A stretch of DNA of 64,000 nucleotides from Pedobacter helvus (GTDB lineage Bacteria; Bacteroidota; Bacteroidia; Sphingobacteriales; Sphingobacteriaceae): NCBI RefSeq assembly GCF_005925325.1, contig NZ_SRMP01000003.1, positions 315,210 through 379,209 of the forward strand, given 5' to 3'. How positions within the stretch are numbered: position 1 is the first letter of the stretch; every line of letters starts with the position of its first letter. A model generated the notes under the pieces. That model did not search any database. It saw only the letters and a program-made list of their open reading frames with translations, and had not been told where the DNA came from. The translations under genes and the position numbers were made by a program. This document shows, piece after piece, positions 23,593-27,689 of this stretch.

Positions 23593-24336
23593 TTAAACGT
23601 TCCTACTATCAATCAGTTTAAAGAAAGCATCTCTATAGGTATCTCCTACCGGGATAGTCTTGCCTGCGATAGAAATACGACTGCGCTCTATACTTTCAAT
23701 CTTATCAACCGAAATGATATACGATTTGTGCACCCTGATGAATTCGCCTTTTGGCAAGGTTTCTTCCATCTTTTTCATGTTCTGAAGCGTAATTACACGC
23801 TCATTTTTCGTGAAGATGGAGATATAATCTTTTAAACCCTCGATATAAAGAATATCATCTAGCTCTATTTTTTGGATTTTATGCTCTGTTTTAACAAAGA
23901 TGAAATCTTGAATTGGTGCAGCCACAGTGGGCGTAGCAACAGGCTCAGGAGCTGGAGCCGCTACCGTAACTTCTTGCTTCTGGTGTTGGTTACGTACCTT
24001 TTCTACCGCTTTGTAGAACCTATCAAAAGCAATTGGCTTTAACAGATAGTCAGACACATTTAGGTCGTAGCTTTCTAAAGCATATTGTGAGTAGGCAGTG
24101 GTAAGAATATAGTTTGCTTTGTTGCCTGCAATTTTTAGAAACTGAATACCCGTTAATTCAGGCATCTGAATATCTAAAAACACCAAATCGATATTACCTT
24201 CCTGTACTAACTGCATCGCTTCAATAGCGCTTTCTGTACGTTTCACTAATTCTAGGAAAGGCACCTTAGCTACATAATCAGCAATAATATCGAGCGCTAA
24301 AGGCTCATCATCTACGGCAATACATTTTAAAATCAT
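23593..24336 (-). CDS. LytTR family response regulator
   Basis: A 247-residue two-component regulator. Residues 1-120 form a receiver domain with the phospho-acceptor Asp in LVFLDIQMPELTG (about residue 55) and acidic DDEP at the N-terminus. A Pro/Ala-rich linker (APAPEPVATPTVAAP, about 148-162) follows. The C-terminal LytTR DNA-binding domain (about 165-245) has FVKTEHKIQKIELDDILYIEGLKDY and FIRVHKSYIISVDKIESI. The start codon overlaps the end of the histidine kinase gene by 4 bp (ATGA), so the pair is translationally coupled. Its likely targets include the divergent peptide/ABC operon. Confidence 0.92.
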   Translation of the reverse strand: MILKCIAVDDEPLALDIIADYVAKVPFLELVKRTESAIEAMQLVQEGNIDLVFLDIQMPELTGIQFLKIAGNKANYILTTAYSQYALESYDLNVSDYLLKPIAFDRFYKAVEKVRNQHQKQEVTVAAPAPEPVATPTVAAPIQDFIFVKTEHKIQKIELDDILYIEGLKDYISIFTKNERVITLQNMKKMEETLPKGEFIRVHKSYIISVDKIESIERSRISIAGKTIPVGDTYRDAFFKLIDSRNV

Positions 24337-25370
24337 AAGTCAAGCATTAGTTCTGTGGTGTAATGCGTAGCCGAATTTACAATATTTAGTTTATACCTAT
24401 CGGGATAAAGCAACTGTAACCTACGCTCCACGTTATTTAGTCCAACACCACCAATAGCGTCTTTGTTGGTAGTATTCTTTTTATTACTTACACTAAAGTG
24501 TAATATCTTCTGGTTGGCGATAATATTTATTTTGATTGGATCTTCGGCATCATTAGCCACACCGTGTTTAAACGCATTTTCTACAAACGAGATTAAAATT
24601 AACGGTACAATTTTTTGTCCATCAATTACACCATTGATGCTGATTTCTACGGCAGCGCCATCTTTAAATCTCAGCTTTTGTAGTTCTACATAACTTTCTA
24701 CATATTCAACCTCTTTATCTAAACTCACCCAGCTATCGTTACTCTCATAGATCATATAGCGCATAATTTCTGAAAGTTTCAAGATGGCATCGGCTGTTTT
24801 ATCAGATTTCTGGTAAGCCAGAGAATAAATATTATTTAAGGAATTAAACAGGAAATGTGGATTAAGTTGAGATTTTAAGAACTGCAACTCCATGTCCTTC
24901 TTTTCGCTTTCCAAATTCCGTTGAATACGTTCGTTCGAAAACCAATCTACCGCAAATTTGATGATACTGCTAGAAACCAAAAAGAACCCCGCAATAAATA
25001 TTACCGTAACAACATAGTTGGCCGTAGAAATGCTTTGAACTTTACCATCATCAGTGGTGTATTGAAGTACGCTCTCTGGATTTAGCAAAGCAACACCTAG
25101 TTTAATGCCAACACTAGCAACAATTAGTAGAATAAAACAAATGATATACCATAAATATTGCTTCCGCTTTTTAATAAGCTCTGGAATTAATACGATATAG
25201 TTAATGTAGAATACAGCAACGTTAATTGAACCGAAGATTAGATAGTCGATTACATGCTCTCTTAGGCTGTGCTCTCTAGAGGAGAAAATAAAAGAAGTAG
25301 CTACGAGCGCCCCTATTATTCCCCAGAATATGCAATTTAATATGAATGATGCTCTGCTACTATTTTTCAT
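24333..25370 (-). CDS. LytS/YehU-type sensor histidine kinase
   Basis: A 345-residue kinase with four predicted membrane helices in the first 150 residues (about 8-28, 42-62, 74-94, 110-135) and no large extracellular domain. The linker is coiled (SNERIQRNLESEKKDMELQF). The His_kinase domain has the phospho-acceptor in LNPHFLFNSLNNIY (about residue 172) and an ATPase domain with ISFVENAFKHGV (about 260) and IGGVGLNNVERRL near 320. It is paired with the LytTR regulator downstream. The lack of a sensory domain suggests it senses in or at the membrane, as in bacitracin-type or small-peptide systems. Confidence 0.92.
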   Translation of the reverse strand: MKNSSRASFILNCIFWGIIGALVATSFIFSSREHSLREHVIDYLIFGSINVAVFYINYIVLIPELIKKRKQYLWYIICFILLIVASVGIKLGVALLNPESVLQYTTDDGKVQSISTANYVVTVIFIAGFFLVSSSIIKFAVDWFSNERIQRNLESEKKDMELQFLKSQLNPHFLFNSLNNIYSLAYQKSDKTADAILKLSEIMRYMIYESNDSWVSLDKEVEYVESYVELQKLRFKDGAAVEISINGVIDGQKIVPLILISFVENAFKHGVANDAEDPIKINIIANQKILHFSVSNKKNTTNKDAIGGVGLNNVERRLQLLYPDRYKLNIVNSATHYTTELMLDL

Positions 25371-25430
25371 AAAATCTGTAGAAACTTAATCTTCTAAACT
25401 ACCTATAAGCCTTATTGCTACCAAGCGCTT

Positions 25431-25500
25431 TCGACGAACAGGCATTTTTTTTCTACGAATAGGCAATTTAGCCGATTTATTCGACAAACTGGCATTTTTA
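25431..25500. promoter_or_regulatory. Three operator-like repeats between the LytTR pair and the peptide/ABC operon
   Basis: TCGACGAACAGGCATTTTT (25431), TCTACGAATAGGCAATTTA (25452) and TCGACAAACTGGCATTTTT (25481) share TCgACgAAcagGCAtTTt, at spacings of 21 and 29 bp. On the opposite strand two of the three cores carry GTT (CTGTTCGTC, CAGTTTGTC), and the third is CTATTCGTA; GTT is the core of LytTR sites. Direct repeats 21 bp apart are the usual LytTR arrangement. The site lies 61-130 bp upstream of the kinase start and about 200 bp upstream of the small-peptide gene. Binding by this regulator is inference. Confidence 0.6.
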
Positions 25501-25620
25501 CCGTTTATCTAGGATATTTTGCACTTGGTCTAAAACATTTTCGCAGGTTTTAAAGAATTATTCTATTTGTTCAACGAAAACAACAAGAGTAAAAACCTTA
25601 AACCGAAATAAGACGAAACC

Positions 25621-25667
25621 ATCGAGAGGTTTCCATTGAAAAACCTTCAAAAAATAAAACTCTCGAT
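25621..25667 (+). promoter_or_regulatory. Nested hairpin in the leader of the peptide/ABC operon
   Basis: ATCGAGAG (25621-25628) pairs with CTCTCGAT (25660-25667), and inside it AGGTTT pairs with AAACCT. The structure lies 34 nt before the ATG of the 57-aa gene, so it would be in the 5' untranslated region if transcription starts upstream. Confidence 0.45.
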
Positions 25668-25700
25668 AGCTTCATATCCATTAAATAAAAATAACAGATT

Positions 25701-25874
25701 ATGAAAAAGTTAACCAACGTATCGCCATTCTTACTTTTATTAGTACCTGTATTTATGGTAATGTTATTTGCCTTTGCTACGAATAACAACAGCAATAACG
25801 AAGAGCAGGTAGCTAAAACCACTACTAGTGCAAACACTTCTATTGTTAAAGCCGCAACTGTAATCTTGAAATAA
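25701..25874 (+). CDS. 57-residue membrane peptide preceding an ABC exporter
   Basis: A short frame from ATG 25701 to TAA 25874. It encodes a basic MKKLTN start, one strongly hydrophobic helix (SPFLLLLVPVFMVMLFAFA, residues 8-26) and a hydrophilic Asn/Thr/Ser-rich tail (NNNSNNEEQVAKTTTS...). Two bases separate its stop from the ATP-binding gene at 25877 (TAAGGATG), so the two are probably co-translated. No known family is recognised. The context, divergent from a LytTR two-component pair and before an exporter, suggests a peptide that is sensed, exported or accessory to the transporter. It is not a random ORF by composition: it has a helix, a polar tail and tight coupling. Confidence 0.7.
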   Translation: MKKLTNVSPFLLLLVPVFMVMLFAFATNNNSNNEEQVAKTTTSANTSIVKAATVILK

Positions 25875-25876
25875 GG

Positions 25877-26785
25877 ATGAGCGTATTTGCCATAGAAACT
25901 GTCGGGCTTAACCACCACTTTGGTTCACAAACTGTAGTTAAGGATTTATCTTTGCAAGTCCCTAAAGGAAGCATTTATGGCTTTTTAGGACCTAATGGAG
26001 CGGGTAAAACCACTACCATTAAGATATTGCTTAATTTGCTACAGTCGCCCTCAGACACTGTTTTTATATTTGGCAAAGAAATTACTAATCATCGTACTGC
26101 TTGTTTAAGGCAGATGGGTTCTTTGGTAGAACAGCCAGCCATTTATGCGCACTTAACAGGTAAAGAAAACTTGATTAACCGTTGCATTCTTTTAGGTATA
26201 ACTAAAAATAAGGCAACAGAGATGTTAGCTTTGGTTGGTTTAACCGATGCTGCTAATAAAAAAGCTGGCAAATATTCTTTAGGGATGAAACAACGTCTCG
26301 GAATTGCTTTAGCATTAATTGCAGATCCAGAGCTGTTGTTATTAGACGAACCTACTAATGGTTTGGATCCAAATGGGATTATCGAGATCAGGAACTTAAT
26401 GATTGAGCTAACGAGTAAGCACGGCAAAACGATCTTAGTTTCTAGCCATTTATTGGCCGAGATCGAAAGAACTGCCACCCATGTGGGCATCATTAATAAA
26501 GGCGAATTACTTTTCCAAGGAACCATCAACGAGCTACACGATTTAAGCAAACCGTCTATCAAAATTGAAGTAGACGACTACGCCGCCGCCACTAACATCT
26601 TAAGTGGAAATGGAGCCGAAGTTATTAACGAGAAAGAAGGAACTATTCATATTGCTTATACAGGAAAAGCCGACATGGGCAATTACAACAGTCTTTTAGT
26701 AAAAAATGGGGTTACGGTTTATTCCATCGGAACAGAGAAAAAAGACTTAGAACATTTGTTCCTAGATATCACATCGAAGAATTGA
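25877..26785 (+). CDS. ABC transporter ATP-binding protein (BcrA/bacitracin-exporter type)
   Basis: A 302-residue ATPase subunit with Walker A GPNGAGKTT (about residues 35-43), Q-loop near VEQPAIYAHLTG, signature YSLGMKQRLGIALAL (about 135-149), Walker B LLLLDEPTNGLDP (about 154-166) and H-loop SSHLLAEI. The remaining 80 residues are a BcrA-like C-terminal module. Start is 2 bp after the small peptide gene. It pairs with the permease at 26892 in an ABC-2 exporter of the kind used for lantibiotic or bacitracin resistance or lipid-linked substrates. Confidence 0.92.
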   Translation: MSVFAIETVGLNHHFGSQTVVKDLSLQVPKGSIYGFLGPNGAGKTTTIKILLNLLQSPSDTVFIFGKEITNHRTACLRQMGSLVEQPAIYAHLTGKENLINRCILLGITKNKATEMLALVGLTDAANKKAGKYSLGMKQRLGIALALIADPELLLLDEPTNGLDPNGIIEIRNLMIELTSKHGKTILVSSHLLAEIERTATHVGIINKGELLFQGTINELHDLSKPSIKIEVDDYAAATNILSGNGAEVINEKEGTIHIAYTGKADMGNYNSLLVKNGVTVYSIGTEKKDLEHLFLDITSKN

Positions 26786-26890
26786 AATCACAAATATCAA
26801 ACTCCAATTACCAATCTTAAATTCCAAGTATCAGTTATCTCACTGCTAGCATACTAATCACCCAAAAACCTAAACAACCAAACAAACTAT
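26786..26890 (+). repeat. Word-repeat spacer inside the ABC operon
   Basis: The 106-bp spacer between ATPase and permease carries imperfect repeats of CAAATATCAAACTCCAATTAC, then CCAATCTTAAATTCCAAGTATC. A junk-like tract of this kind in a transporter operon is notable; no hairpin is apparent. Confidence 0.4.
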
Positions 26891-26891
26891 C

Positions 26892-27689
26892 ATGCGTTCG
26901 TTTTTTATCTCATTACAATCAGAATTTTATAAATCGCGTAAAACTTTAGCTTTTTGGGCAGCGATCATAGTTCCTGTGGTTATTTGCGGACTAATTGCTT
27001 TTGGGTACTTCACTAGCTCCGAGAAAATCTTAAAGTATAACTACTCGGGCATGATGCTGTGGTTTCAATACAGCAGTGCCGCATTGGGTGTAATGGGAAT
27101 GCTGATTTTACCATTCTACGTAATATTCATGGCATTTTCAGTGAATAATATCGAGCATAAGAATGATACTTGGAAAACGCTATTTTCGCAGCCTTTAAAC
27201 AAGTTTTCCATTTACGCAGCCAAATATGTGTATGCCTTAATACTACTCTTAGTTTGTACTTTTTTATTTGCCTTCCTTACTTATTCCTCTGGGTATCTAT
27301 TGCAGGCATTAGTCCCAAAATATACTTTCCAAGATTACAATCCGGCAATTATTTTATCTAAATTTTACACCAAACTGCTCTTAGCCTCTCTCGGAATTTT
27401 ATCCATACAATTTGTGCTAAGTTTAATTTGGAGCGACTTCCTAAAGCCTATGGGAATTGGCTTTATAGGCATCATTGCAGGGATTATCACGGCAAATGTA
27501 GGCTGGAAACATGCTTACCTTATTCCCTACAGCAATCCAACTTTGGCATTAAGAATGACATCAGCAAGCAAAAAAGCAAAACCTGAAGAATTACCCATAT
27601 TTACACAGGAAGTTTGGGTGAGTTTAATCTGTGCAGTCCTATTATTTATCGTTGGTTATTTCATCCTCCTAAAGAGGAATATCAAATAA
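26892..27689 (+). CDS. ABC-2 type transporter permease
   Basis: A 265-residue integral membrane protein with six predicted helices: about 19-39, 60-82, 112-140, 158-190, 195-215 and 238-258. The N-terminus reads MRSFFISLQSEFYKSRKTLAF, the short amphipathic lead-in found in BcrB/MutE-like ABC-2 permeases. It is the likely partner of the ATPase at 25877. The terminator at 27722-27751 ends the operon. Confidence 0.88.
   Translation: MRSFFISLQSEFYKSRKTLAFWAAIIVPVVICGLIAFGYFTSSEKILKYNYSGMMLWFQYSSAALGVMGMLILPFYVIFMAFSVNNIEHKNDTWKTLFSQPLNKFSIYAAKYVYALILLLVCTFLFAFLTYSSGYLLQALVPKYTFQDYNPAIILSKFYTKLLLASLGILSIQFVLSLIWSDFLKPMGIGFIGIIAGIITANVGWKHAYLIPYSNPTLALRMTSASKKAKPEELPIFTQEVWVSLICAVLLFIVGYFILLKRNIK

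Follow-up and report, generated by a model that had tools for sequence, protein, structure and literature searches.

A conserved single-helix membrane peptide and a bipartite operator at a LytTR two-component locus of Pedobacter helvus and its relatives

The window analysed here is a 64,000-nucleotide stretch of the Pedobacter helvus genome (contig NZ_SRMP01000003.1, positions 315,210 to 379,209) in which the genes of a LytTR response regulator and a histidine kinase face a gene for a 57-residue membrane peptide, followed by the ATPase and permease genes of an ATP-binding cassette (ABC) exporter. A preliminary description made from the sequence alone had reported this layout, and the genes lie where it placed them, with their Pfam domains confirmed. 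Comparison with related genomes shows that the peptide is a conserved protein under purifying selection, tied first to the kinase/regulator pair and second to the exporter. A regulatory linkage of the pair to the peptide is very probable. We propose that the locus may well be an envelope-sensing LytTR system whose dedicated output, a single-helix membrane protein, is a partner of the kinase within the membrane. To our knowledge, what such kinases sense and control in Bacteroidota is mostly unknown, and no description of the locus or the peptide appeared among the papers listed by searches of the open-licence PMC literature.

An ortholog-grade match to the kinase was obtained in all 60 same-genus genomes searched, the window genome included, and the surrounding region was retrieved from each. 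The regulator has a tblastn match in 59 of these loci (73–94% identity, excluding the window's own), the contig of the 60th stopping short. The peptide lies divergently upstream of the kinase in 58 loci by tblastn and in the remaining two by reading of the DNA, and hence in 60/60. In alignments, conservation is high along the N-terminus and helix (MKKLxNxSPFLLLLxPVF) and the tail is variable; uncorrected pN/pS is 0.145 over the N-terminus and helix, from 272 pairs, and 0.322 over the tail, from 268 pairs. The small frame thus has both the conserved start and the coding constraint by which the preliminary description had proposed to judge it. In an alignment of 28 kinases, the phospho-His region with H172 and the N-box are invariant. 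The peptide shows no homology to a described family: the window peptide matched nothing in NCBIfam or PHROGs, the best Pfam E-value over 21 members was 0.012 (PilX_N, in 2 of the 21), and a profile search of the PDB gave weak matches, the best being NdhP with an E-value of 0.058.

The region between the divergent genes had been noted for three operator-like repeats, spaced by 21 and 29 bp. These are present, at 25430, 25451 and 25480, and chance is excluded as their source because none of 500 dinucleotide shuffles equalled the triple repeat (33/38 identities) and only one in 500 equalled the best pair (17/19). Their universal part, however, is the first two, and the operator first outlined was incomplete, a second pair at 25503–25532 having been overlooked. 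The conserved unit is a 9-bp half-site with the consensus STTSRTCKA, which occurs as pair A, facing the kinase on the minus strand, and pair B, facing the peptide on the plus strand (Table 1). At a pair score of at least 15 of 18, 21-bp pairs were found on each strand in 62/62 genus regions, and in other genera in 27/28 regions on the plus and 26/28 on the minus strand; one shuffle per region yielded none. Two loci (L070 and L129) in which the second pair was mis-assigned are kept in these counts, as misses where they failed. The repeats are therefore conserved upstream of orthologous operons, the check originally proposed for them. At two loci where no peptide adjoins the kinase (L256 and L259), the minus pair is kept (score 15) and the plus pair is not (12). 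In the window the two 9-mers of each pair are separated by a 12-bp spacer and stand 6 bp from a proposed −33 element on each side. This geometry matches published LytTR sites, described in a section of PMC4847170 as repeats of 9–11 nt with spacers of 11–13 nt and, for Streptococcus mutans, in a section of PMC6193735 as lying 4–11 bp upstream of −35, and the match counts in favour of a LytTR regulator binding A and B.

Promoter elements were assigned on the model of the Bacteroides promoters treated in part of PMC6193735. Both proposed window promoters are built alike, with a half-site pair, 6 bp, the −33 element, 19 bp and the −7 element. A distance of 33 bp separates the −7 TTTG from the end of B2 in 61/62 genus regions, 27/28 other-genus regions and 7/7 regions of second peptide copies (95/97 together). 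On the kinase side TTTG, TTGG or TTAG, all three tetramers being allowed, lies 32–34 bp from A1 in 58/62 genus regions. The gap between A and B is 11–12, 21–23, 31–33, 42–44 or 62 bp, which corresponds to whole helical turns. For ten values, grouped by hand and including one from a separate reading of a region, the concentration of phase at 10.5 bp was reached in 3 of 200,000 random draws, and for the five length classes p = 0.0075; L070 and L129 (gaps −32 and −93) are omitted from both. Such phasing is suggestive of contact between regulators occupying the two pairs.

In seven genus genomes a second copy of the peptide has an operator of its own (L168–L174), and three of these copies are followed by the ABC exporter. 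They were retrieved out of nine genomes with two matches, G041 and G189 being left out, and the kinase pair was found within the retrieved stretch in none. Pair B is present at 7/7 of these copies and pair A at 6/7. Contact between regulators at A and B would explain why A is mostly retained there although the kinase gene is missing.

Table 1. Features of the locus in window coordinates
Feature	Position	Strand	Details	Basis
LytTR response regulator	23593..24336	−	247 aa	Pfam PF00072 and PF04397 above cut-off
Histidine kinase	24333..25370	−	345 aa, four predicted helices	Pfam PF06580; hydropathy
Proposed kinase promoter, −7 element	25394..25401	−	TAGTTTAG; −33 TTGG at 25421–25424	read from sequence
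Half-site A1	25431..25439	−	GTTCGTCGA on − strand	conserved 60/60
Half-site A2	25452..25460	−	ATTCGTAGA on − strand, 21 bp from A1	21-bp pair in 62/62 genus regions
Third repeat copy	25481..25489	−	GTTTGTCGA on − strand, 29 bp further	29-bp pair in 32/62 genus regions
Half-site B1	25503..25511	+	GTTTATCTA	block B at peptide promoters
Half-site B2	25524..25532	+	CTTGGTCTA, 21 bp from B1	half-site pairing
Proposed peptide promoter	25539..25569	+	−33 TTTC at 25539–25542, 19 bp, −7 TCTATTTG at 25562–25569	read from sequence
Single-helix membrane peptide	25701..25874	+	57 aa, 57 codons, helix residues 7–25	hydropathy
ABC ATPase	25877..26785	+	302 aa	PF00005
ABC-2 type permease	26892..27689	+	265 aa, six predicted helices	PF12730 (ABC2_membrane_4) above cut-off; hydropathy

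The peptide stop lies 2 bp before the ATPase ATG and hydropathy gives a single helix, both as first described. A short frame so placed, behind a hairpin in the 5′ untranslated region (5′-UTR) of the window (z −2.73), might be a leader peptide or attenuator that governs the ATPase gene and whose product has no function. We regard this as hardly credible: the pN/pS of 0.145 speaks against it, the frame is kept where no ABC genes follow and the hairpin is not genus-wide. It was set aside on the strength of the purifying selection and the retention without ABC. The window hairpin spans 25615–25673 and was equalled by 2 of 200 shuffles; it is not common to the genus alignment, where most 5′-UTRs are too short or unlike it. 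Hairpins with stem ends resembling GAAACCAT and GATAGCTTCAT stand just 5′ of the peptide in the window and at L034, L128 and L139, in scattered genomes, and are perhaps a repeat element. At 29 of the 60 genus loci (L041, L045, L068 and L075, for example) an in-frame N-terminal extension of 29–39 codons precedes the conserved start, mostly opening with an ATG about 21 bp past the −7 TTTG. It was rejected as a conserved part of the protein, pN/pS being 0.93 in the largest group (29 codons, 18 rows).

The whole set had been read as a sensing and export circuit. This is partly supported: the peptide accompanies the kinase pair in 60/60 genus genomes, but the ATPase and permease adjoin it in only 43. 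Among the 17 ABC-less loci, the permease ortholog is absent from 15 genomes and lies at a second peptide copy in two. On a kinase tree of 59 of the 60 rows, fragmentary L090 having been removed by a length filter, ABC absence amounts to seven changes, at least six of them on supported branches, with the peptide retained in each. Exporter gain or loss has thus been repeated.

Where the exporter is present its ties to the peptide are close, and the peptide could serve the exporter as an accessory subunit or as a chaperone, with a link to the kinase that is solely regulatory. The 2-bp gap to the ATPase would fit such a role. All six permease orthologs in 21 genomes examined adjoin a peptide copy, including two that are relocated (G023 and G024), as does the permease ortholog of G323. 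The tail is also better conserved where ABC is present: for kinase identities of 0.75–0.80, tail identity is 0.69 when both loci have ABC (150 pairs), 0.41 when one has it (15) and 0.16 when neither does (13), the corresponding values for the helix region being 0.91, 0.72 and 0.69. Tail conservation therefore tracks ABC presence, in sequence pairs that are not independent. Against an exporter subunit stands the occurrence of peptide and operator with no adjacent ABC in 17/60 genomes, 15 of them lacking a permease ortholog, and we consider this role improbable.

The variable tail and the operator-bearing second copies could also be those of a pheromone or antimicrobial that is exported by the ABC proteins and sensed by the kinase, and the gene set resembles that of LytTR quorum-sensing loci. 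Systems of this kind (Agr, Com and Blp) are defined by a processing or export enzyme, either AgrB or an ABC protein with a C39 peptidase, and by a conserved mature signal. Here the part conserved is the helix, the tail is variable, the ATPase and permease have no C39 or other peptidase family among their Pfam matches (AgrB was not searched for genome-wide), and no double-glycine motif is seen in a 21-row peptide alignment. Moreover, the exporter is not adjacent in 17/60 genomes, and at three loci (L084, L186 and L187) the peptide has no tail. These versions measure 26–35 residues from the annotated start, though an in-frame upstream ATG could extend the N-terminus; all three keep the operator and none is adjoined by ABC genes. 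A secreted signal, one of the roles first suggested, is consequently not favoured. It was set aside because the helix is conserved, the tail sometimes missing and the exporter optional, and we judge it very improbable.

Beyond the genus, a search with the single peptide sequence matched 61/201 genomes of the family, spread over 9 of 25 genera, and a 21-row profile applied to the order matched 221/300 genomes from 14 of 17 genera, with some of the matches weak. At the class level the profile matched 9/295 genomes, eight within the family and one (G520) judged false, being a partial match inside a 306-aa frame; this search is insensitive, as the same profile overlooked two true peptides of the family. 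Among 31 other-genus peptide matches retrieved, 28 adjoin the same kinase and regulator, which extends the arrangement to other genera of Sphingobacteriaceae. Two of the remaining three (L131 and L147) have the peptide and operator sites with no kinase nearby, and L145, with neither kinase nor operator, was judged false. Among 20 genomes examined of the 79 with no profile match, a close regulator ortholog (64–65%) was present in two, both of which carry a diverged peptide. The other 18, 16 of which belong to the single genus g55, have no close regulator ortholog, the best match listed being at most 48% in 17 and weak in G165 (E 1.7e-5). A separate set of 18 kinase orthologs, which shares many genomes with the main set and is not independent of it, has the peptide adjacent in 16 and detached in two (Desertivirga), where the 21-bp B pair is kept. 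The peptide screen of this set used a sequence pattern, and the two peptides it overlooked were then found detached. At 62 lower-ranked kinase loci, mostly paralogs, the pattern found no peptide.

Detached peptides with an operator occur in Desertivirga and the genus g51 (L131, L147, L324, L325 and L357). Each has a B pair, and L131, L324 and L357 have an A pair as well; the L131 peptide lies after a LacI-type regulator gene. Three of the 62 lower-ranked loci (L264, L269 and L283, from Pontibacter, a Cytophagales bin and Spirosoma) have a related LytTR kinase opposite a different secreted-looking protein, and between the two lie 21-bp half-site pairs that score at least 15 on both strands; this arrangement is perhaps an older version of the layout.

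At up to one mismatch block B occurs 13 times in 11 genomes, each time at a peptide promoter, with two more sites at three mismatches and two matches for the reversed control. Pattern A has two sites at 0–1 mismatch in the window genome, both at this locus, and its 3-mismatch sites are background (7 sites in total versus 13 for the reversed control). Four sites in the window genome match the half-site pair alone at 0–1 mismatch, namely block B, two sites in front of DUF2807 genes and a fourth within a coding frame. Since such pairs also precede DUF2807 genes, the idea of a strict single-target operator was loosened, and the circuit may not be self-contained as had been supposed. At up to one mismatch, eight genus genomes have 24 sites, 21 of them in front of DUF2807-like genes; a single site, in unrelated sequence, was found in four g55 genomes, and the reversed control gave 5 over all 12 genomes. 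Exact pairs were found in 39/201 family genomes, comprising 30 of 36 in the own genus, nine in four other genera and none of 34 in g55, with genera tallied by eye; borderline peptide profile matches in two g55 genomes (G162 and G181) weaken g55 as a system-less contrast. Of 28 exact-pair loci inspected from the 59 sites listed, 15 lie before DUF2807-like genes, six at peptide promoters and three before genes for other short exported proteins, the last four having no assignment.

In the window genome, half-site pairs stand before DUF2807 (head GIN/Toastrack) genes at C5:295851–295880, C6:587175–587204 and C11:39481–39510 (L327, L328 and L330), the last being a 2-mismatch match. At the DUF2807-gene sites a shared TGCAAC...GTCTTA-like block follows throughout the genus genomes examined, and this may be an extracytoplasmic-function sigma promoter. 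According to a section of PMC11237479, the Toastrack domain found in PSP/Lia envelope-stress systems includes DUF2807.

We propose the following mechanism. The four-helix kinase would sense a signal in or near the membrane and phosphorylate the LytTR regulator, which would bind both pairs and so increase expression of its own operon (from A) and of the peptide (from B), with the two sites cooperating across whole helical turns. The peptide is predicted to sit in the inner membrane with its N-terminus inside, and its conserved helix (SPFLLLLxPVF) would exert its effect there, the likeliest being feedback regulation of the kinase. The variable tail would work with the ABC exporter where one is present. 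Exported DUF2807 (Toastrack) proteins are further likely outputs, giving an envelope-homeostasis response. More tentatively, the system could be a switch common to the whole family Sphingobacteriaceae, in which the peptide, as obligate partner, reports on or damps its kinase, links it by the tail to an exporter that can be exchanged, and shares its regulation with Toastrack proteins.

The peptide could instead be a membrane effector, induced by the regulator, that acts on the envelope itself by stabilising or remodelling it and does not touch the kinase, as small membrane proteins of the Lia and Psp systems may do for the envelope; we consider this somewhat unlikely. It would suit a peptide that is kept without ABC, that occurs at other loci and whose half-site pair is shared with DUF2807/Toastrack genes, Toastrack being treated in a section of PMC11237479 as a PSP/Lia partner. 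The tie to one kinase/regulator pair and a helix with an internal proline suggest a specific partner instead, although both are compatible with an effector too.

Several points weigh against the partnership of peptide and kinase proposed here, or against the operator on which it draws. Kinase contact is presumed from the genes and their conservation, and a downstream effector would yield the same conservation. The consensus STTSRTCKA was derived from the regions that were scored with it; only the detached peptides, the 18-ortholog set and the DUF2807 sites came after it had been fixed. Retention of pair A at second copies that have no kinase gene means that A is not solely the kinase operator, and the kinase-side −7 distance is regular within the genus only and not in other genera. 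The tail comparison was built on non-independent pairs. In the window genome the half-site pair at up to two mismatches has 19 sites versus 50 for the reversed control, for which reason 2-mismatch pairs are background. Several genera bearing the trio of kinase, regulator and peptide (for example g57, g60 and almost all of g53) show no exact pair outside the locus. A paralogous LytTR regulator might be the one that uses the DUF2807 sites, and control of these genes by the present regulator is putative.

The nearest parallels are YpdA/YpdB and BtsS/BtsR of Escherichia coli, which likewise couple a LytS-type kinase to a LytTR regulator that has very few targets and tandem half-sites at a distance of about 21 bp, YpdB having the single target yhjX according to a section of PMC4847170. 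In both the target is a transporter gene, whereas here it would be a single-helix small protein behind a divergent two-pair operator. The regulator does not reach the NCBIfam cut-off for BtsR (117.8 versus 246 bits), and no YpdB model was among the 25 listed. In MgrB–PhoQ/PhoP, a small inner-membrane protein is also under its own regulator, an action that is presumed here from the operator. However, the kinase family and DNA-binding domain of PhoQ/PhoP differ from LytS/LytTR. MgrB, of 47 aa (PMC2789325, in part), differs in that the present peptide has no homology to a described family, would inhibit its kinase only by analogy and frequently precedes an ABC exporter. LytTR regulatory systems (LRS; HdrRM, BrsRM and the 'LRS-like' operons of Bacteroides, of the same phylum) resemble the locus in pairing a LytTR regulator with a membrane partner and, in the sections of PMC6193735 that treat them, in having direct repeats 11–13 bp apart just upstream of the promoter, with ABC genes adjoining some operons. 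They consist of a kinase-less regulator and an inhibitory membrane protein (DUF3021/DUF2154), whereas a kinase gene and a receiver domain are present here. LiaFSR/PSP systems likewise unite a two-component system with a small membrane protein and Toastrack proteins that are probably joint outputs (PMC11237479, in part), but their regulator is of the winged-helix and not the LytTR type, and the DUF2807 genes with sites are unlinked here; Pfam found no PspA- or LiaF-like gene among the locus proteins scanned. If the proposal is correct, the locus would be a Bacteroidota counterpart of the Lia and PhoQ–MgrB logic, assembled from unrelated parts around one helically phased bipartite operator. For one such kinase, comparison alone has yielded a precisely defined operator, a likely regulon and, as candidate partner, a conserved small protein, and opens to study the signal of sensor-less kinases, the tuning of kinases by small membrane proteins outside Proteobacteria, and the gain and loss of an exporter in a standing circuit.

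The exporter had been called BcrA-type. This is fair by the best-scoring NCBIfam models of the ATPase and permease, which are those of lantibiotic protection (TIGR03740 and TIGR03733), as in lantibiotic-immunity and BcrAB exporters, but no cut-off was reached among the models listed (238 versus 309.75, 38.3 versus 117.2 and 28.3 versus 145.2 bits), and the neighbouring genes scanned with Pfam encode an acyltransferase, a methyltransferase and an M28 peptidase rather than bacteriocin functions. Sensing ABC transporters of the BceAB type have a large 10-helix permease with an extracellular domain, unlike the short ABC2_membrane_4 permease found here. The kinase was described as having no sensor domain beyond four helices, and this agrees with hydropathy and with a Pfam scan that returned PF06580 alone and no separate sensor domain. 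A PF06580 kinase adjoining a REC–LytTR regulator places the pair among LytS/LytTR-type two-component systems, and the window genome has 13 kinase matches of the PF06580 kind.

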